Shown one piece after another: positions 5,278 through 31,864 of a stretch of 34,276 nt of DNA. This DNA is from Candidatus Omnitrophota bacterium (GTDB taxonomy: Bacteria > Omnitrophota > Gorgyraeia > DAOVKU01). The DNA lies in the NCBI GenBank assembly GCA_030631665.1, contig DAOVKU010000004.1:1-34276 (forward strand). Reading direction: 5' to 3'. The first letter of the stretch is position 1. Each line of letters begins with the position of its first letter. The notes under the pieces are model-generated. The model did not search any database. It saw nothing but the letters and a program-made list of their open reading frames with translations, and was not told where the DNA came from. A program made the translations under genes and the position numbers.

Positions 5278-6060
5278 ATGAATATTATTGTTTGCATTAA
5301 ACAGGTTCCCGAAACCACTGAGGTCAAGATAGATCCCGAGACAAATACTTTAATTAGGGAAGGGGTGGCCTCAATCATTAACCCTTTTGATACCTATGCT
5401 ATTGAGGAAGCATTAAGAATTAAAGAAAGGATAGCATCTAAAGTTATGGTCTTAAGTATGGGGCCGCCTCAGGCCGAAGAAGCACTTAGGCAGGCTATAG
5501 CTATGGGGGCAGATGAGGCTGTGTTGCTTTCTGACCGCAGTTTTGCCGGGGCAGATACATTGGCTACCAGTTACACTCTTTCCAAAGGTATTTCGAAGAT
5601 CGGTGAATATAATCTGATTATTTGTGGCAAACAAGCCACCGATGGCGATACAGCACAGGTTGGACCCGGCATTGCTGAACATCTCAATATTCCGTGCGCG
5701 ACTTTTGTAAAAAAAATAGAAAAAATAGAAACCGATAAAATTGTTGTTGAAAGCATGAGAGAAGAAGGTTGTGATGTAATTGAGATACCTTTGCCTTGTG
5801 TTATCACAGTTGTTAAAGAGATAAATGAGCCTCGCTTGCCTTCTTTTAAAGGAATGTTGCGGGCAAAAAAACAAGAGATAAAAATCTGGGGTAAATCCGA
5901 CATCGGAGCAGAGGAAGGTTGTATAGGCTTAGATGGTTCGCCGACTCAGGTAATAAAAATATTTACACCTCCTGCGAGAAAAGGCGGTTTAATTTTAGAA
6001 GGTTCAGCTAAAGAAGTAACAGAAAAAATAGTTTCTCTTCTTGAGAACGAAATAAAATAA
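5278..6060 (+). CDS. etfB: electron transfer flavoprotein beta subunit
   Basis: Partner of EtfA in the heterodimeric flavoprotein that shuttles electrons to or from acyl-CoA dehydrogenase. The 260-residue length is usual. The family start MNIIVCIKQVPETTEVKID, the INPFDTYAIEEALRIKE segment and the nucleotide-binding CGKQATDGDTAQVGP segment are all present. There is no clear Shine-Dalgarno sequence before the ATG at 5278. The start was chosen because homologues begin with this M-x-I-x-V-x-x-KQVP sequence. etfA follows after 7 nt. Confidence 0.95.
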   Translation: MNIIVCIKQVPETTEVKIDPETNTLIREGVASIINPFDTYAIEEALRIKERIASKVMVLSMGPPQAEEALRQAIAMGADEAVLLSDRSFAGADTLATSYTLSKGISKIGEYNLIICGKQATDGDTAQVGPGIAEHLNIPCATFVKKIEKIETDKIVVESMREEGCDVIEIPLPCVITVVKEINEPRLPSFKGMLRAKKQEIKIWGKSDIGAEEGCIGLDGSPTQVIKIFTPPARKGGLILEGSAKEVTEKIVSLLENEIK

Positions 6061-18684: not shown

Positions 18685-18762
18685 CGGGGCGTAGCGCAGT
18701 TTGGCTAGCGCGCCTGCTTCGGGAGTAGGAGGTCGGCGGTTCAAATCCGCCCGCCCCGACCA
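18685..18762 (+). tRNA. tRNA-Pro (anticodon CGG)
   Basis: A full cloverleaf: acceptor CGGGGCG (18685-18691) with CGCCCCG (18752-18758), discriminator A and encoded CCA (18760-18762). The D stem is GCGC/GCGC. The anticodon stem CCTGC/GTAGG has loop TTCGGGA, giving anticodon CGG at 18720-18722. The T stem GGCGG/CCGCC has loop TTCAAAT. Its 3' end is duplicated at 24035-24055 and marks the left edge of a genomic island. Confidence 0.95.
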
Positions 18763-18763
18763 A
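18743..18763 (+). repeat. left attachment repeat (attL) at tRNA-Pro 3' end
   Basis: The 21 bp AAATCCGC...CCGACCAA cover the T loop, T stem, acceptor strand and CCA of tRNA-Pro plus one base. They are repeated without mismatch at 24035-24055. Such tRNA-end duplications are typical of tyrosine-recombinase islands. Confidence 0.85.
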
Positions 18764-18895
18764 TACTTTGGTTTAGCGCGTCCACCTCAGGCAGAAGGTC
18801 GTCCGCCTAAGGCGGACCGCCCCGACCAATGCTTTTGGTTTAGCGCATCCACATCAGACGGTAGGTCGTCCGCCTGAGGCGGACAGCCCTGACCA
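18763..18895 (+). repeat. two tandem degenerate tRNA-Pro-derived repeats (66 and 67 bp)
   Basis: Unit 1 (18763-18828) and unit 2 (18829-18895) each resemble tRNA-Pro from the D loop to CCA. TTTGG...TAGCGC matches the D arm, AGGTC matches the variable region, and CCGCCCCGACCA (unit 1) or CAGCCCTGACCA (unit 2) matches the acceptor/CCA end. The T arm is replaced by the dispersed palindrome TCCGCCTNAGGCGGA. Neither has a 5' acceptor strand or a good anticodon arm, so they are tRNA remnants rather than tRNA genes. Confidence 0.75.
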
Positions 18896-19022
18896 AAAAA
18901 AGTAGATGCCTGCCTGTGGTAGGCAGATATTTCCGGAAGATTTGGAAAAAGCGGAATATTTGGCATAAAAAGAAATAAATGACGATTTTGCCATATTATA
19001 CCTAATACGTATTTTATGATAT

Positions 19023-19136
19023 TGCGGGGCAATTACGGATAGGGAAAAAGAATTGCAGGAAGAATTAGTCACTATTTTGATTGAATTAGCTCTTAGAGAC
19101 TGCATATATAAAGAAAATATGTATTCCATATATTAA
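19023..19136 (+). pseudogene. possible decayed ORF 3' fragment
   Basis: An open frame without a convincing start reads ITDREKELQEELVTILIELALRDC and stops with TAA at 19134-19136, inside the first attC-like hairpin. A stop codon lies 20-30 bp upstream. It may be the tail of an eroded first cassette, or chance. The rest of 18896-19115 shows no gene. Confidence 0.25.
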
Positions 19137-19145
19137 TTGTTATGT
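19116..19145 (+). other. partial attC-like site (attC0), left edge of the cassette array
   Basis: The 30 bp match the right part of the short attC at 22347-22376 with three differences and end in the R' half-site GTTATGT (19139-19145). The left half-site (ATAACAA) is missing, so it is a remnant or serves as the entry edge of the array. Confidence 0.55.
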
Positions 19146-19180
19146 GAAAAAATAATTAAAATAAAAAAGGAGATAAAGAC

Positions 19181-19267
19181 GTGGGTGATAAAGGACAGAA
19201 AGATAAGGATAAAAAAGTAAAGCAATCAAAAGAGAAAAAAGAGAAAAAAAATAAAAAACAAAAATAA
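19181..19267 (+). CDS. 28-aa lysine-rich peptide (cassette A)
   Basis: A GTG start with a strong AAGGAG site (19168-19173) opens a 28-residue protein, MGDKGQKDKDKKVKQ onward, nearly all Lys, Glu, Gln and Asp, with no hydrophobic core. Small proteins of this composition starting MGDK are, from memory, annotated as hypothetical in several bacteria. A nucleic-acid-binding role is only a guess. It is the sole convincing ORF of its cassette. A second in-frame stretch without a start (about 19280-19363, WITVKELRDEVLCLLKEIG) follows and may be a decayed gene. Confidence 0.55.
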   Translation: MGDKGQKDKDKKVKQSKEKKEKKNKKQK

Positions 19268-19391
19268 ACTGTTTAATAAAACAAATTCGTCAAGTGGATT
19301 ACAGTTAAAGAATTAAGAGACGAAGTGCTTTGTTTGCTTAAGGAAATAGGGGTTGTAGTTTAAAAAGTTTAAAGTATGAATGAATAAAAAC

Positions 19392-19470
19392 ACATAACAA
19401 CGCACTACACCTGACCTTTTCCCGCGCCCTATCGGGCTTGGTCAAAGTCAGGTGAGCTTGAATGTTATAG
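19392..19470 (+). other. attC site 1
   Basis: R'' ACATAAC (19392-19398) and R' GTTATAG (19464-19470) flank an imperfect palindrome. The inner arms are CACCTGAC (left) and GTCAGGTG (right), around a variable centre. The 79-bp length and R''-L''-L'-R' layout fit integron attC sites. It ends cassette A. Confidence 0.82.
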
Positions 19471-19484
19471 GATAAAAAATAAAA

Positions 19485-19970: not shown

Positions 19971-19978
19971 CAATTAAC

Positions 19979-20063
19979 CTATAACAATTCGCTTCACATT
20001 GACCGGAACCTGTGCCCGATTTCATCGGTCACGGATTCCGGCAAGTGAGCTCAAATGTTATGC
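19979..20063 (+). other. attC site 2
   Basis: R'' CTATAAC (19979-19985) and R' GTTATGC (20057-20063) are reverse-complementary at their cores. The arms CTTCACATTGACCGGAA and TTCCGGCAAGTGAG pair with an extra base on one side, as is usual in attC. Length 85 bp. Confidence 0.82.
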
Positions 20064-20096
20064 AATACGTAGCAAAAATAAGCATAAGGAGAAATA

Positions 20097-20837
20097 ATGT
20101 CGATACCTAAGGTTTTTATCTCTTACTCACATGATACCCAAGAACATAAAAAGTGGGTTTTAGATTTAGCTACTCGTTTACGGGGGGGCGGTGTTGACGC
20201 AATCATTGATCAATGGGAACTAAGGCCAGGTGACGATCTGCCTCACTTTGTGGAAACTCACCTGGCTGATTCAGATTATGTAATTATGGTCTGTACGGAT
20301 AGGTATGTTGAAAAAGCAAATAAGGGTGTCGGCGGTGTCGGATATGAAAAGATGATTATTACGGCCGATCTGTTTGCCAATATCGATTCTAACAAAATCA
20401 TTCCTATTATCCGGCAAAGTGGAACTCACAACGTCCCTACATTTCTGAAAACCAAACTATTTGTTGATTTCTCTCATTCAGGTGATTACGAATACAGCTT
20501 CGATGAACTTGTAAGAACCTTCCATGATGCCCCTCTTTTTGAAAAGCCTGCCATCGGCAATAGTCCTTTCATACCGATAGAAGATATTCGACCAGAAAAA
20601 ACAGGCGATGCCCTACGCGAATTAATGGCCATAGTCGTAACCGATTTTGAAGCAGGGTATGATTGGTCAGTCTACAAATCAATTGTCAAAAAAGTTGGAG
20701 TGTCAAGGATAATGCTTGATTCACTTATAATGGAGGCTAAAAAGAAAGGTTTAGTCACTCAAGATTCCGATAAAGATCTCCGTTTAGCTGAAAAAGGCAA
20801 ATTCTATGCGGTCGAACATAAATTAGTGAAAGCATAA
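20097..20837 (+). CDS. TIR/SEFIR-domain protein (cassette C)
   Basis: The 246-residue cytoplasmic protein has an N-terminal TIR-superfamily domain of the SEFIR/TIR_2 type (about 3-140). It shows KVFISYSHDTQEHKKWVLDL, DQWELRPGDDLPHFVE and DYVIMVCTDRYV. Glu84 in GYEKMI is a candidate for the acidic residue used by NAD-cleaving TIR domains, but this is not certain in the SEFIR branch. The C-terminal 80 residues (VTDFEAGYDWSVYKSIV to the end) look like a helical winged-helix-type region. Bacterial TIR proteins often act in anti-phage signalling by NAD+ depletion. AAGGAG precedes the ATG. The stop codon sits inside the R'' of attC 3. Confidence 0.88.
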   Translation: MSIPKVFISYSHDTQEHKKWVLDLATRLRGGGVDAIIDQWELRPGDDLPHFVETHLADSDYVIMVCTDRYVEKANKGVGGVGYEKMIITADLFANIDSNKIIPIIRQSGTHNVPTFLKTKLFVDFSHSGDYEYSFDELVRTFHDAPLFEKPAIGNSPFIPIEDIRPEKTGDALRELMAIVVTDFEAGYDWSVYKSIVKKVGVSRIMLDSLIMEAKKKGLVTQDSDKDLRLAEKGKFYAVEHKLVKA

Positions 20838-20909
20838 CAAAGCGCTGCACCCGACTGTTAGCCGCCGCCTTCGGTGTCGGGCGCTAGCAGGTGAGCTTGA
20901 ATGATATAG
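20832..20909 (+). other. attC site 3
   Basis: R'' GCATAAC (20832-20838) and a degenerate R' GATATAG (20903-20909), with arms GCACCCGAC and GTCGGGCGCTAGCAGGTG. The right side AGGTGAGCTTGAATG is the same as in attC 1. R' lacks the second T of GTT, which could weaken recombination here. Confidence 0.72.
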
Positions 20910-20917
20910 GAGAAAAA

Positions 20918-21511
20918 ATGAAAATATTGAAAGAAATATTAAAGGCATTAAAAGAACTAATCTCAATAATTTTAGGCTTTGCTTTAGTGGCTTTCATTTG
21001 CTGGGGAATTTATCTCATAGCAAATAAAGTGATTTCTGTATTTATAAAACTGGATCCTACTGTTGCTGCCAGTTTAATAGCGGCTTCAGTAACAATTATT
21101 GTGTCTGTTATTTCTGTTTTGTTGGCTAAACTTTTAGAACATAGGTCCGAGATCCGTAAAGAAATGCGTATAAAAAAAATTCCTGCATACACTGACTTAA
21201 TAAATTTTATGTTTCGAGTATCTTTTGCTAAAAAAAGAGGACAAAACCCGCCAACCGAAAAAGAGATACTTGATTTTTTTCAAGGATTCACAGAAAAAAT
21301 TGTTGTATGGGGATCAGATGATGTAATTAATGCTTTTAATGCTTTTCGTACTTTTGCACAAAAAACTCAAACTGCGCAAAGTGAAAATATTTTATTTGTA
21401 GCAGAGACATTATTTTTAACAATAAGAAAAGATCTCGGACATAAAAATAAGGGCTTAACAAAAGGCAAACTCTTAGGGCTTTTTGTAAATGATATTGAAA
21501 AATACCTATAA
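20918..21511 (+). CDS. two-helix membrane protein of unknown function (cassette D)
   Basis: From the ATG at 20918 the product has 197 residues. Two hydrophobic segments (about 14-37 and 48-73) are followed by a basic turn (EHRSEIRKEMRIKKIPAY) and a cytosolic helical domain of about 120 residues. An upstream GTG at 20891 lies inside the attC site and is unlikely. AGGAG, partly formed by the R' half-site of attC 3, gives a good ribosome site 6-7 nt before the ATG. I do not recognise a catalytic motif. Small two-helix membrane proteins are common partners or effectors in defence cassettes, so a membrane-effector role is possible but unproven. Confidence 0.78.
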   Translation: MKILKEILKALKELISIILGFALVAFICWGIYLIANKVISVFIKLDPTVAASLIAASVTIIVSVISVLLAKLLEHRSEIRKEMRIKKIPAYTDLINFMFRVSFAKKRGQNPPTEKEILDFFQGFTEKIVVWGSDDVINAFNAFRTFAQKTQTAQSENILFVAETLFLTIRKDLGHKNKGLTKGKLLGLFVNDIEKYL

Positions 21512-21580
21512 CCAGACAATACATCTGACCTTACTCTGCGGCTGCGCCGTTCCGCAAGGCAGCTGATTTTTGTATTATGT
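21506..21580 (+). other. attC site 4 (degenerate)
   Basis: R'' CTATAAC (21506-21512) and R'-like ATTATGT (21574-21580). The left arm ACATCTGACCTT resembles ACACCCGACCTT of attC 6, the centre is GC-rich (CTGCGGCTGCGCC), and the right arm is AAGGCAGCTGA. The R' core departs from GTT. Confidence 0.62.
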
Positions 21581-21593
21581 GAGAAAAACTAAA

Positions 21594-22328
21594 ATGCCCA
21601 GAGATAAAAAAATTAAGAAAATATTTGAGATAGCCGATGATGGAATCCAAGGAGTAGTGGGCTATTTCTTTTATGTCCTTGCGTGCAAGAATGCAGTCAA
21701 TGCAAATTCCCTTCTGTCAAAACTTCCCGATAAAGTCATTCCAATTACCCATGAATGGTCTCGATACTATAATCCACATGACCTTATTGATATTATGAAT
21801 TCGCTTTTTAATCCATATCATGCCCGCATATGTTTGATTTCAACAATTAGCATATTTGAAGGAGCATTAAAAAATTTTATTGAAAGACTCTTGGATGCAA
21901 ATAAAATTAAACAGTCTCCTAAAAATAGCTATAAGAAAAAACTTGAATGGATATTTCGCGAAGTATTAAAATCTAATTATGGCACAGCCACAATGATAGC
22001 AAGAATACCTGAACTTTGCCTGCATATCGATCATGCCCGACGCATAAGAAATCTATGGATGCATAATAATGGTCTTTTTGATGAGCACTATAAAAAAGAC
22101 GGTATTTTGTTGCCGAAATATTCTCCCATTATTGATGTCTCATATAAAAATAAAAAACCGGTTATAATAAAACCTGAATGGTTTCTTGCTATGTGTCATT
22201 CACACATAGAGTTATTGCACCAAATCCATTACCAACTACAAAAGAAATATTTTGGTCAAAAAAAATCCTATAGCTATAAAGAATTAAAAAAACGTATTGA
22301 GTGGCATAGGCTTTTAACTGGTGTATAA
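21594..22328 (+). CDS. HEPN-like protein (cassette E)
   Basis: The ATG at 21594 gives 244 residues; the TTG at 21570 falls in attC 4. The protein is mainly helical. It carries RNLWMH, an R-x4-H motif (Arg152 to His157) in the context HARRIRNLWMHNNG, which is the hallmark of HEPN RNases. An earlier helix, STISIFEGALKNFIERLL (about 83-100), also fits HEPN-type folds. HEPN proteins cut RNA in toxin-antitoxin, abortive infection and CRISPR-related systems. No cognate nucleotidyltransferase (MNT) is beside it. Neighbours are other cassettes, each expected to act on its own. The assignment rests on the motif and helical pattern, so it needs a profile search. Confidence 0.65.
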   Translation: MPRDKKIKKIFEIADDGIQGVVGYFFYVLACKNAVNANSLLSKLPDKVIPITHEWSRYYNPHDLIDIMNSLFNPYHARICLISTISIFEGALKNFIERLLDANKIKQSPKNSYKKKLEWIFREVLKSNYGTATMIARIPELCLHIDHARRIRNLWMHNNGLFDEHYKKDGILLPKYSPIIDVSYKNKKPVIIKPEWFLAMCHSHIELLHQIHYQLQKKYFGQKKSYSYKELKKRIEWHRLLTGV

Positions 22329-22335
22329 TGAAAAT

Positions 22336-22376
22336 ACATAACAATTAATATGTATTCCACATATTAATTGTTATAC
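22336..22376 (+). other. attC site 5, minimal perfect palindrome
   Basis: R'' ACATAAC and R' GTTATAC are the ends of a perfect 16-bp inverted repeat (22338-22353 with 22359-22374) around a 5-nt loop ATTCC. At 41 bp it is shorter than most attC sites and has no extrahelical bases. A 30-bp near copy lies at 19116-19145. Confidence 0.6.
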
Positions 22377-22383
22377 GAAAAAT

Positions 22384-23079
22384 ATGGAAATATCGATTAT
22401 GGAAACATTCAAGGTAATAGGAATTGGTCTTGCGACAAATGGAACATTACTTGCATTATTTATAATCATTTTTAAAAAATGTTTTGACGCTTGGCTATCT
22501 AAATCAACCGAAATTCATCTGAAGAAAATTGAATTGGAAAACAATAAGAATTTATATAGTTATGGAAAAATTTTCGACGAACAAGCAGCAATAATTAAAG
22601 AAATTTATTCTGATATAACTGTAATTTTCGGAAATATTCAGCATTTATTATATCACTTTAATTTATTGGAGAATAATCCTGAATTATTCGATCACTTGCG
22701 AATTCCTAAAAACGGAGACGGCCCAAAATGGGATAAATATCTCAAGGCAACGCTATCAGAAAGTCGTGAAGAAAAAATTGCTAAAAAAACTTCTGAGCTT
22801 GCAAGTACAACAACAAGAAAAATTCAATCCAATAAAATATTTTTTCCCAAGCATATAGCAAATGAATTAGAAGTATTATCTACTCTTGGTTTTTTTATAG
22901 CATCACAGTTCAAAAATGTTACTTATAGAGATCCTGAAACATTTGAAACTCCTATTGCTAATGAAGTTATTGAAACCTGGAAACAAGCAATAGAAACATC
23001 AAGAACGACACTACCTATTTTAGAAGATATGTTTAGAAAACATTTGAGGATAGAAGAAACAGAAAAAAATGACGTATAA
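22384..23079 (+). CDS. single-pass membrane protein of unknown function (cassette F)
   Basis: The 231-residue product has one hydrophobic helix near the N-terminus (about 10-31, VIGIGLATNGTLLALFIIIF) and a long cytosolic helical domain. Asn- and Glu-rich sequence (IELENNKNLYSYGKIFDEQAAIIKEIY) suggests a coiled-coil stalk. The ATG at 22384 is taken; ATG 22399 is a close alternative and neither has a clear ribosome site. The stop TAA overlaps the R'' of attC 6. No family recognised. The shape, a membrane anchor plus a helical body, resembles cassette D. Confidence 0.72.
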   Translation: MEISIMETFKVIGIGLATNGTLLALFIIIFKKCFDAWLSKSTEIHLKKIELENNKNLYSYGKIFDEQAAIIKEIYSDITVIFGNIQHLLYHFNLLENNPELFDHLRIPKNGDGPKWDKYLKATLSESREEKIAKKTSELASTTTRKIQSNKIFFPKHIANELEVLSTLGFFIASQFKNVTYRDPETFETPIANEVIETWKQAIETSRTTLPILEDMFRKHLRIEETEKNDV

Positions 23080-23139
23080 CAACTCAATACACCCGACCTT
23101 TTCCGCCGCTCCAAAGGCGGGTGATTTCGGGCGTTATAG
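23074..23139 (+). other. attC site 6
   Basis: R'' GTATAAC (23074-23080) and R' GTTATAG (23133-23139). The arms ACACCCGAC and CGGGTGATTTCGGG surround a short GC-rich centre (CCGCCGCT/AGGCGG). Length 66 bp. Confidence 0.8.
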
Positions 23140-23151
23140 GAAAATAAATTT

Positions 23152-23943
23152 ATGAAAATAGAGAATTGGGAAGATTTTGAAGAAAAAATAAAAAAAATTT
23201 ATTCTAAAGTTCAAAGACTCAAAACTAAAGAGAATGCTTCCAAAGTTTCAACTCCACTATTTCGCGGTCAAAGCGATGCTGCATGGGAATTAAAAACAAC
23301 GTTAGATAGATTGGAAAGTAATTTCTCAGTTGAAAAATACTACAGAATAATTCGCAGCATAAAATCTGCTGTAGAAAGCTACACATCAAATCGTTGGCAA
23401 TTGCCAACCATCGAACGAGACTTAACTCAACTAGATAAATACGATACAATATCTATGCCTTCTTATGAATTTATGACACACCTTAGGCATAATTGTTTCC
23501 CCTCACCACTCTTAGACTGGACAAGATCACCATATATTGCAGCTTTTTTTGCCTTCAATGAAGACAAAAAGACAGATCCGGCAATTTATGTGTATATTGA
23601 ATTTACTGGTAAAGGGAAAACTTGGCGTTCTGACAAGGCAAAGATTTGTTCATTGGGGCCGAATGTTACAACACACAAACGACATCATCTGCAGCAGAGT
23701 GAATACACTTTTTGCATAAAAGGAATGGACAAAAAATACTCATATGCACCCCATGAAGAAGTCATATCAAGATCAAGTACAGATCAAGACATTATTGAAA
23801 AATACAGTTTACCTTATTCTGAAAGAGCATTTTTTTTGAACAAACTAAATCAAATGAATATTAATGCTTATTCCCTTTTTGAAAATGAAGAAGGATTAAT
23901 GAATAAACTTGCAAATGAAGAATTGTTAATAAAAAACCTATAA
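23152..23943 (+). CDS. FRG-domain protein (cassette G)
   Basis: The 263-residue protein contains the FRG domain: STPLFRGQSDAAWEL with Phe37-Arg38-Gly39, then the family's second block PSPLLDWTRSPYIAAFFAF (near residue 118). FRG domains are widespread in stand-alone bacterial proteins of unclear chemistry and frequently sit in phage-defence or accessory loci. The ATG follows attC 6 by 12 nt, and AGGA from the GTTATAGGA junction can act as the ribosome site. The stop overlaps the R'' of attC 7. The protein is soluble, with no signal peptide. Family call is strong; function is inferred at best. Confidence 0.88.
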   Translation: MKIENWEDFEEKIKKIYSKVQRLKTKENASKVSTPLFRGQSDAAWELKTTLDRLESNFSVEKYYRIIRSIKSAVESYTSNRWQLPTIERDLTQLDKYDTISMPSYEFMTHLRHNCFPSPLLDWTRSPYIAAFFAFNEDKKTDPAIYVYIEFTGKGKTWRSDKAKICSLGPNVTTHKRHHLQQSEYTFCIKGMDKKYSYAPHEEVISRSSTDQDIIEKYSLPYSERAFFLNKLNQMNINAYSLFENEEGLMNKLANEELLIKNL

Positions 23944-24001
23944 CAATTCGCTGAAGCCGACCATTTTGCTGCGCAAAATGGCGGCTTAGCTCAAGAACAA
24001 T
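23938..24001 (+). other. attC site 7, right end of array, R' degenerate
   Basis: R'' CTATAAC (23938-23944), then AATTCGCTGAAGCCGACC, a strong hairpin CATTTTG-CTGCG-CAAAATG, and GGCGGCTTAGCTCAAG, which pairs with the left arm. This is the closest of the set to widely seen attC sequences. Where R' should be, the sequence is GAACAAT (23995-24001), so the half-site is lost or replaced. Confidence 0.75.
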
Positions 24002-24034
24002 AAAGGGGACGGTTCTATTAAAATATGGGAAGAG

Positions 24035-24055
24035 AAATCCGCCCGCCCCGACCAA
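24035..24055 (+). repeat. right attachment repeat (attR), copy of tRNA-Pro 3' end
   Basis: A perfect 21-bp copy of 18743-18763. The 33 bp between the last attC and this repeat (24002-24034) include GGGGACGGTTCTATT, which recalls short repeats near REP-type transposases in other genomes; no transposase is present. Downstream sequence is ordinary coding DNA. Confidence 0.85.
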
Positions 24056-30973: not shown

Positions 30974-31864
30974 TTGAATGAATTAGCAGAGCAGTTCTTA
31001 AATTATCTTTTTGTTGAACGCGGTCTGGCCAGAAATACTATTTCTAGTTATCGGACCGACTTAAAAAAATTTCATTCTTTTCTGAAAAAAAAAGGAAAAA
31101 CATCGGTTGATAATATAACCAGGGAAGATATCAGAAATTTTTTAATGGACCTTAAGGATAAAAAGCTTTCTGTTAATTCCATAGCCAGAAATCTAATTTG
31201 CATTAAATCTTTTTTTAAATATCTTATAAATGAAAGAATTATCAAAGATGATATTACCGCAGTGCTTGAGTCGCCTAAATTATGGAAGAAACTTCCTGAT
31301 ACTTTGAGCATTGAAGAGGTAGATAAAATTATTTTAAAAGCAAATTTTAAAAATAGACAGGGTATAAGAGATAAAGCTATCCTGGAGGTTCTCTATGGTA
31401 CCGGCATGCGGGTTTCCGAAGCGGTCAATCTCAAACTCAGAGACATTAATTTTGAAGTCGGGTTTTTAAAATGCAAGGGCAAGGGGCAGAAGGAAAGAAT
31501 TGTGCCTTTCGGCGATAAGGCTAAGACTGCTATCAAACGATATTTAAAAGAGGCGCGTCCCAAGTTTATTTTAAAAAAAAGAGATGTGCCGGAAATCTTT
31601 TTATCCAGATTGGGCAGGCCAATATCAAGGGTTTCCATTTGGAAAATGATAAAGACTTACACCAGAAAAGCTAATATTAAAAAAAATATAACGCCTCATA
31701 CTTTAAGGCATTCTTTCGCTACGCATATGCTTGAGGGGGGTGCGGATTTAAGAGTAGTACAGGAACTTTTGGGTCACGCTGATATTTCCACAACACAAGT
31801 TTATACCCACATAAATAAAGATAGACTTAAAAGCATTCATCATAAATATCATCCCAGACCGTAA
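30974..31864 (+). CDS. xerD: XerC/XerD-family tyrosine recombinase
   Basis: The 296-residue length fits the Xer dimer-resolution recombinases. The N-terminal SAM-like core-binding domain (1-90) contains FVERGLARNTISSYRTDL. The catalytic domain has Arg146 (GTGMRVSEA), a beta-hairpin Lys (CKGKGQKERIVP), His242/Arg245 (HTLRHSF), His268 (LGHADIS) and Tyr277 (TQVYTHI). The TTG start at 30974 is the best option in this frame. It lacks the extra helix insertion of IntI integrases, so it is not the integrase of the cassette array, although Xer enzymes can serve mobile elements. It is 6.9 kb from the island's right edge, among housekeeping genes. Confidence 0.92.
   Translation: MNELAEQFLNYLFVERGLARNTISSYRTDLKKFHSFLKKKGKTSVDNITREDIRNFLMDLKDKKLSVNSIARNLICIKSFFKYLINERIIKDDITAVLESPKLWKKLPDTLSIEEVDKIILKANFKNRQGIRDKAILEVLYGTGMRVSEAVNLKLRDINFEVGFLKCKGKGQKERIVPFGDKAKTAIKRYLKEARPKFILKKRDVPEIFLSRLGRPISRVSIWKMIKTYTRKANIKKNITPHTLRHSFATHMLEGGADLRVVQELLGHADISTTQVYTHINKDRLKSIHHKYHPRP

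Follow-up and report, generated by a model that had tools for sequence, protein, structure and literature searches.

A cassette junction in an Omnitrophota array, most likely a fusion of an attC edge with a second copy of attI

The junction between the fifth and sixth cassettes of an attI-led array in Candidatus Omnitrophota bacterium (lineage Bacteria; Omnitrophota; Gorgyraeia; DAOVKU01) is real and fits best among the deltaattI-type cassettes, as a variant; a bidirectional minimal attC is not supported. We put a probability of about 80% on the reading that this site, at 22336-22376, is the 3′ end of a deltaattI-type cassette, in which the R″ edge of cassette 5 was kept and a truncated copy of the array's attI took the place of the rest of its attC. 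Such a fusion of a normal attC left edge with a second attI copy, the most likely origin here, is a known but rare kind of rearrangement. Coordinates refer to the window, meaning the whole stretch of DNA analysed, 34,276 nt of contig DAOVKU010000004.1 (GCA_030631665.1).

The array has seven cassettes. Besides 22336-22376 (here 'attC5'), it carries six ordinary attC sites with a conserved L″ box and an interrupted stem, which score 56-71 bits with an attC covariance model. That model was trained on the same six sites, so the scores are not independent; independent support for the array comes from the sites that the model finds in many relatives absent from the training set. The features are as follows, with attC scores from R1.

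19095-19146, plus strand: attI at the array's left end, with L box ATATATT (19128-19134), R box GTTATGT (19139-19145) and crossover after G19139; attI profile E = 1.1e-6
19392-19473, plus strand: attC1, canonical; 70.2 bits, in the training set
19978-20066, plus strand: attC2, canonical; 56.1 bits, in the training set
20831-20912, plus strand: attC3, canonical; 62.2 bits, in the training set
21505-21583, plus strand: attC4, canonical; 58.2 bits, in the training set; the R′ box ATTATGT (21574-21580) forms cassette 5's left end
21594-22328, plus strand: cassette 5 ORF, 244 aa, without a family match
22336-22346, plus strand: R″ box of cassette 5 (ACATAAC, 22336-22342) and spacer AATT, the presumed left edge of cassette 5's former attC
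22338-22374, no strand: perfect 16-bp palindrome with a 5-nt loop, a product of the composite
22347-22370, plus strand: putative deltaattI, from -23 to the crossover G (G22370), with L box ACATATT (22359-22365); 23/24 identical to 19116-19139; attI profile E = 1.1e-4 over 22340-22377
22370-22376, plus strand: R or R′ box GTTATAC, of which TTATAC is the left end of cassette 6 and complements cassette 6's own R″, GTATAAC
22384-23079, plus strand: cassette 6 ORF, 231 aa, without a confident family match
23073-23142, plus strand: attC6, canonical; 71.3 bits, in the training set
23937-24006, plus strand: attC7, the array's right end; 59.0 bits, in the training set

The cassette 5 ORF had no homologues in 384 class genomes, plasmids or viral contigs. 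The only reading frame that cassette 1 apparently holds is short (about 28 codons), is rich in lysine and starts with GTG (19182-19268). Defence-like cargo is found in cassette 3 (20097-20837), which encodes a TIR/SEFIR-domain protein (PADLOC bSEFIR, 2.8e-78), and in cassette 7 (23152-23943), which encodes an FRG-domain protein (PDC-S15, 4e-33). A candidate promoter, GTGGCA-17-TATAAT, lies at 22301-22329, just left of the hairpin and before cassette 6; promoter-like sites in the scan were no more numerous than in shuffles. The last 21 nt of a tRNA-Pro (CGG) gene region (AAATCCGCCCGCCCCGACCAA, 18743-18763) recur exactly at 24035-24055, just past attC7, so the whole attI-led array sits between two tRNA 3′-end repeats. 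This arrangement resembles the cargo of an island inserted at a tRNA gene, and partial tRNA-like copies occur at 18767-18896.

The search of this genome gave no IntI above the cut-off, tblastn with two IntI proteins returned only a XerD-type gene at 30974, and no intI remnant was found near the array. With at least two attC sites and no integrase gene nearby, the array classifies as a CALIN, and neither of its attI-like sites has an adjacent intI. At 93% completeness, the assembly could lack an IntI that lies elsewhere in the genome.

Identifying attI in this lineage was done through its integrases. All loci above the TIGR02249 cut-off in the 384 class genomes were taken (23 loci in 21 genomes), so that the integrase model, independently of the motif, made the selection, and TATTAATTGTT was then sought on the 5′ side of intI to avoid circularity. 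In 20 of the 23 loci the best match to the attI motif (TATTAATTG^TT with an L box) fell 434-634 nt from intI, and a 21st locus (G199) has a diverged form, AATACGGATTCCACATAAGAATTGTTAG, at the same place. Exact TATTAATTGTT occurred at 10 intI loci and in none of the 920 shuffles; matches with two mismatches often arise by chance, and these are informative only through their position. A match beside a true integron integrase was first met in G050, in a search of relatives with 22336-22376, and in G050, G010 and G034 the same kind of motif lies between intI and the first attC, just ahead of the first cassette. Most motif sites with an attI-type spacer have attC after them on the same strand. Judged by position, the motif near intI is the attI of the class.

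A profile built from 39 relatives' sites, with the genome under study left out, found significant matches in the window only at 19095-19146 (E = 1.1e-6) and 22340-22377 (E = 1.1e-4); the next match, unrelated, had E 3.6. Most of the 39 sites had been gathered with a pattern from this window; unlike the integrase-based test, the profile is therefore not fully independent. The motif that adjoins intI in relatives and the restriction of profile matches to these two places together identify 'attC5' as a composite.

Several features of attI in the class stand apart from this junction. In the intI promoter region lies a palindrome resembling ACGAA(N)TTCGT, which recurs in or near attI of the same integron (L035:2424-2445, L037:6903-6918, L036:7315-7330) and could be an operator or an IntI binding site. 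Many class genomes (L079-L098; G011, G045, G182, G258 and others) have attI followed by attC with no integrase found alongside, several times per genome. G011 has six motif sites; upstream of its dispersed copies lies a shared promoter-like stretch of about 40-50 nt. Neither G011 nor G045 yielded an IntI over the cut-off. In G233 (contigs C68, C87, C92 and C110; L086-L089, L108) the single intI adjoins the attI on C68, three more exact attI motifs lie on other contigs, and at least one of these (L087) leads attC sites, making integrase action in trans possible in that genome.

Both 19095-19146 and 22340-22377 carry the L box and the TATTAATTG^TT core of an attI. The extended sequence upstream of the L box is absent from the internal site, where likeness to the copy at 19116 ends at 22347 (-23). 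From there to the crossover G, 22347-22370 agrees with the array's own attI at 23 of 24 positions; the closest relative's attI among those fetched agrees at 21 of 24. The preliminary description had noticed a near copy of the site's right side at the array edge, and alignment upholds it: 19116-19145 and 22347-22376 are identical at 27 of 30 positions (92% across 36 nt). The copy was real, but it is the array's attI and not a coincidental resemblance. A truncated attI that ends at the crossover thus occupies the place of an attC, as in a deltaattI-type cassette. On sequence grounds, the deltaattI fragment appears to start 23 nt before the crossover G and to include the R box.

The left edge of the site belongs to cassette 5. 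Boundary boxes of the R″ (RYYYAAC) and R′ (GTTRRRY) types are present as ACATAAC and GTTATAC. Across the seven cassettes, R″ complements the cassette's own R′ (TTRRRY) at 41 of 42 positions, compared with 24 of 36 for the next cassette's R′, and the R″ of cassette 5 complements its own R′ at 6/6 cassette-borne bases. This bookkeeping confirms the cassette boundary proposed at 22336-22376. The R″ box is intact and the join lies 4 nt to its right; 'ATAACAATT' opens attC2 and attC7 too.

The hairpin was described correctly at the outset. Its arms, 22338-22353 and 22359-22374, form 16 base pairs, all Watson-Crick, around the 5-nt loop ATTCC, and its two strands fold alike (top -12.5, bottom -12.7 kcal/mol by DNA folding; z ~ -8; 0 of 200 shuffles as stable). 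Extrahelical bases and an unpaired central spacer are absent, as had also been noted: the stem is perfect on both strands, the would-be central spacer AATTA/TAATT is wholly paired, and there is no L″/L′ pairing with the extrahelical bases that choose the bottom strand. These 16 bp divide into the attI dyad AATATGT/ACATATT (7 bp), the self-complementary AATT (4 bp) and the R″/R′ core ATAAC/GTTAT (5 bp). Pairing of 5 bp between R″ and R′ is expected at any cassette junction. Since the palindrome divides in this way, its origin by fusion needs little extra coincidence, and it is a by-product of the dyad, the AATT and the R″/R′ core. The dyad of the 19116 copy has 6 pairs and one G-T wobble. Dyads left of the L box are weakly enriched in relatives' attI, with stems of at least 5 bp in 13 of 48 sites (two or three of which are probably not attI) compared with about 12% in shuffles. 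In a circular cassette 5, pairing would reach 18 bp if a possible change at the crossover base is disregarded.

Some observations count against the fusion. The junction at 22346/22347 is not at a known IntI crossover, the attI match is short, at 24 nt, and does not include the upstream part of attI. Perfect pairing further needs AATT at the attC edge, which 2 of the array's 6 attC sites possess, and a single T-to-C change that completes the dyad; a deltaattI fusion alone predicts neither. The relatives compared include none of the same genus that shows the junction before or after the event. The perfect arms would be accounted for directly by an inverted duplication, in which the attI end (ATTAATTGTTAT) would have been copied in inverted orientation by template switching in replication and the match of the left arm to R″ would be secondary; once reverse-complemented, the attI end at 19130-19145 is indeed identical to the left arm, ACATAACAATTAATAT. 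We consider this origin unlikely. The symmetry ends exactly at the cassette-specific R-box bases, and the left arm fits the complement of cassette 5's own R′, as in other cassettes, although the latter match is not decisive because ACATAAC stands at 2 of 7 cassette ends.

Gonzales Machuca et al. described deltaattI-type cassettes, which carry a truncated attI in place of attC, in class 1 and class 2 integrons (PMC12901181). Three natural examples were tested there; they were excised by IntI1 at frequencies from 4% upward and could insert into attI1. The site studied here resembles blaOXA-10-deltaattI1-11 and aadB-deltaattI2-238, as these are described in PMC12901181 (Partridge 2009 type ii as cited there), in having a truncated attI for attC that ends at the normal crossover. 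It also shares with deltaattI-type cassettes the in-array order attI/attC-ORF-deltaattI-next cassette and a fragment identical, or nearly so, to the local attI. Unlike them, it keeps R″ and 4 nt of attC, its fragment starts at -23 and not at one of the listed end points (-8 to -12, -238), it forms a near-perfect palindrome, and it comes from an uncultured bacterium without detectable IntI. Compared with attI of the IntI-bearing class integrons (loci in G050, G010 and G136), it has the same L box, TAATTG^TT core and short dyad left of the L box, but it is internal, has no adjoining intI, and its homology ends 23 nt to the left of the crossover.

The usual entry point for new cassettes is attI. 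We infer that cassette 5 was once the first cassette after attI, that an attC-attI exchange, or alternatively a deletion between attC and an internal attI, then gave 'attI-c5-deltaattI-c6', and that cassettes 1-4 would have been inserted later at attI. For deltaattI-type cassettes, an origin by L-box x R″ exchange has been proposed (PMC12901181). A simple exchange of this kind, as proposed for deltaattI1-11, was rejected here because it does not yield the observed join, which is off the proposed exchange since R″ and 4 nt are retained. Other arrays in the class contain related arrangements. In L081 an ORF ends directly in attI between two attC sites; at 5540-5887 (minus strand) of that locus a 69-codon ORF preceded by an attC leads into an attI with upstream sequence right after the stop codon, and a further cassette and attC come next. 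L097 has an R″-like TTCTAAC upstream of attI that fits its cassette's R′, giving an R″-to-attI junction, and in L079 a single array contains two attI whose upstream sequences are the same.

With an integrase, the fused site would act mainly as a weak double-stranded, attI-like simple site and not as a folded single-strand attC. Residual activity, if any, is more likely to be of the duplex attI type, because the L box, the 4-nt spacer, the R box and G^TT are intact, and it would let cassettes insert before cassette 6 or cassette 5 be excised. Bouvier et al. deleted the extrahelical bases of the VCR and paired its central spacer, and integration of the bottom strand fell 8.5x10^4-fold; crossover in the same construct occurred in R′ or R″ according to the strand delivered (PMC2727003). 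Like that construct (VCR mut20), 'attC5' has a fully paired R-spacer-L stem; mut20 differs in being engineered and in having a longer terminal structure (PMC2727003). By analogy with it, the folded site is predicted to be nearly dead. The earlier suggestion that cassettes might insert in either orientation would accordingly hold for the loss of polarity but not for efficiency, predicted to be near zero. We think it improbable that the site works in a dual mode, as a duplex attI-like target and a strand-neutral single-strand hairpin at once, with cassettes leaving or entering by either pathway and in either orientation. If it did, fusing attI with attC would offer a natural path leading from double-strand recombination sites to single-strand ones. 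The site is probably idle in this genome, where no IntI is recognisable.

The preliminary description had called the site a minimal attC. A genuine one, recombining from either strand and resembling attI through shared IntI binding sequences, would have R″ and R′ boxes in place, a hairpin stable on both strands and correct cassette boundaries on both sides, all of which are seen. Like canonical attC sites (VCR, attCaadA7 and the array's other six), 'attC5' has these boxes and a hairpin; unlike them, it lacks extrahelical bases, an unpaired central spacer and array-type L″/L′ boxes. It is only 41 bp long, against a stated range for attC of 57-141 bp (PMC12901181), and its two strands score 14.7 and 13.4 bits by the attC model, showing no polarity. 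Its right three quarters are the array's attI, and loop and dyad match that attI at 23 of 24 positions, beyond any shared box. Given also the loss of activity in the fully paired VCR, this identity is very doubtful.

A transcription terminator or general intergenic repeat, suggested by a hairpin just past a stop codon, is scarcely credible: the stem is nearly all A-T and not G+C-rich, has no T-run and was not listed by the terminator scan. The check for further copies proposed earlier was run, and the hairpin is single-copy in the 1.5-Mb assembly, the other matches being the copy at 19116-19151 and chance-level pieces; the window holds no other copy with up to 3 mismatches (0 expected in shuffles). 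No comparable palindrome occurs in GTDB genomes or viral contigs except for low-complexity ATT repeats, to which all five pattern matches in GTDB belong. The dispersed repeat that would have undone the original observation was rejected on this basis.

The fusion of an attC edge with attI suggests that deltaattI-type cassettes, so far described, in the literature we found, for mobile resistance integrons, also arise in the chromosomal arrays of an uncultured class. It further suggests that attI-attC fusions can pass for a minimal attC and lead attC finders astray. With attI of the class now defined, internal attI copies and integrase-less attI-led arrays can be counted.
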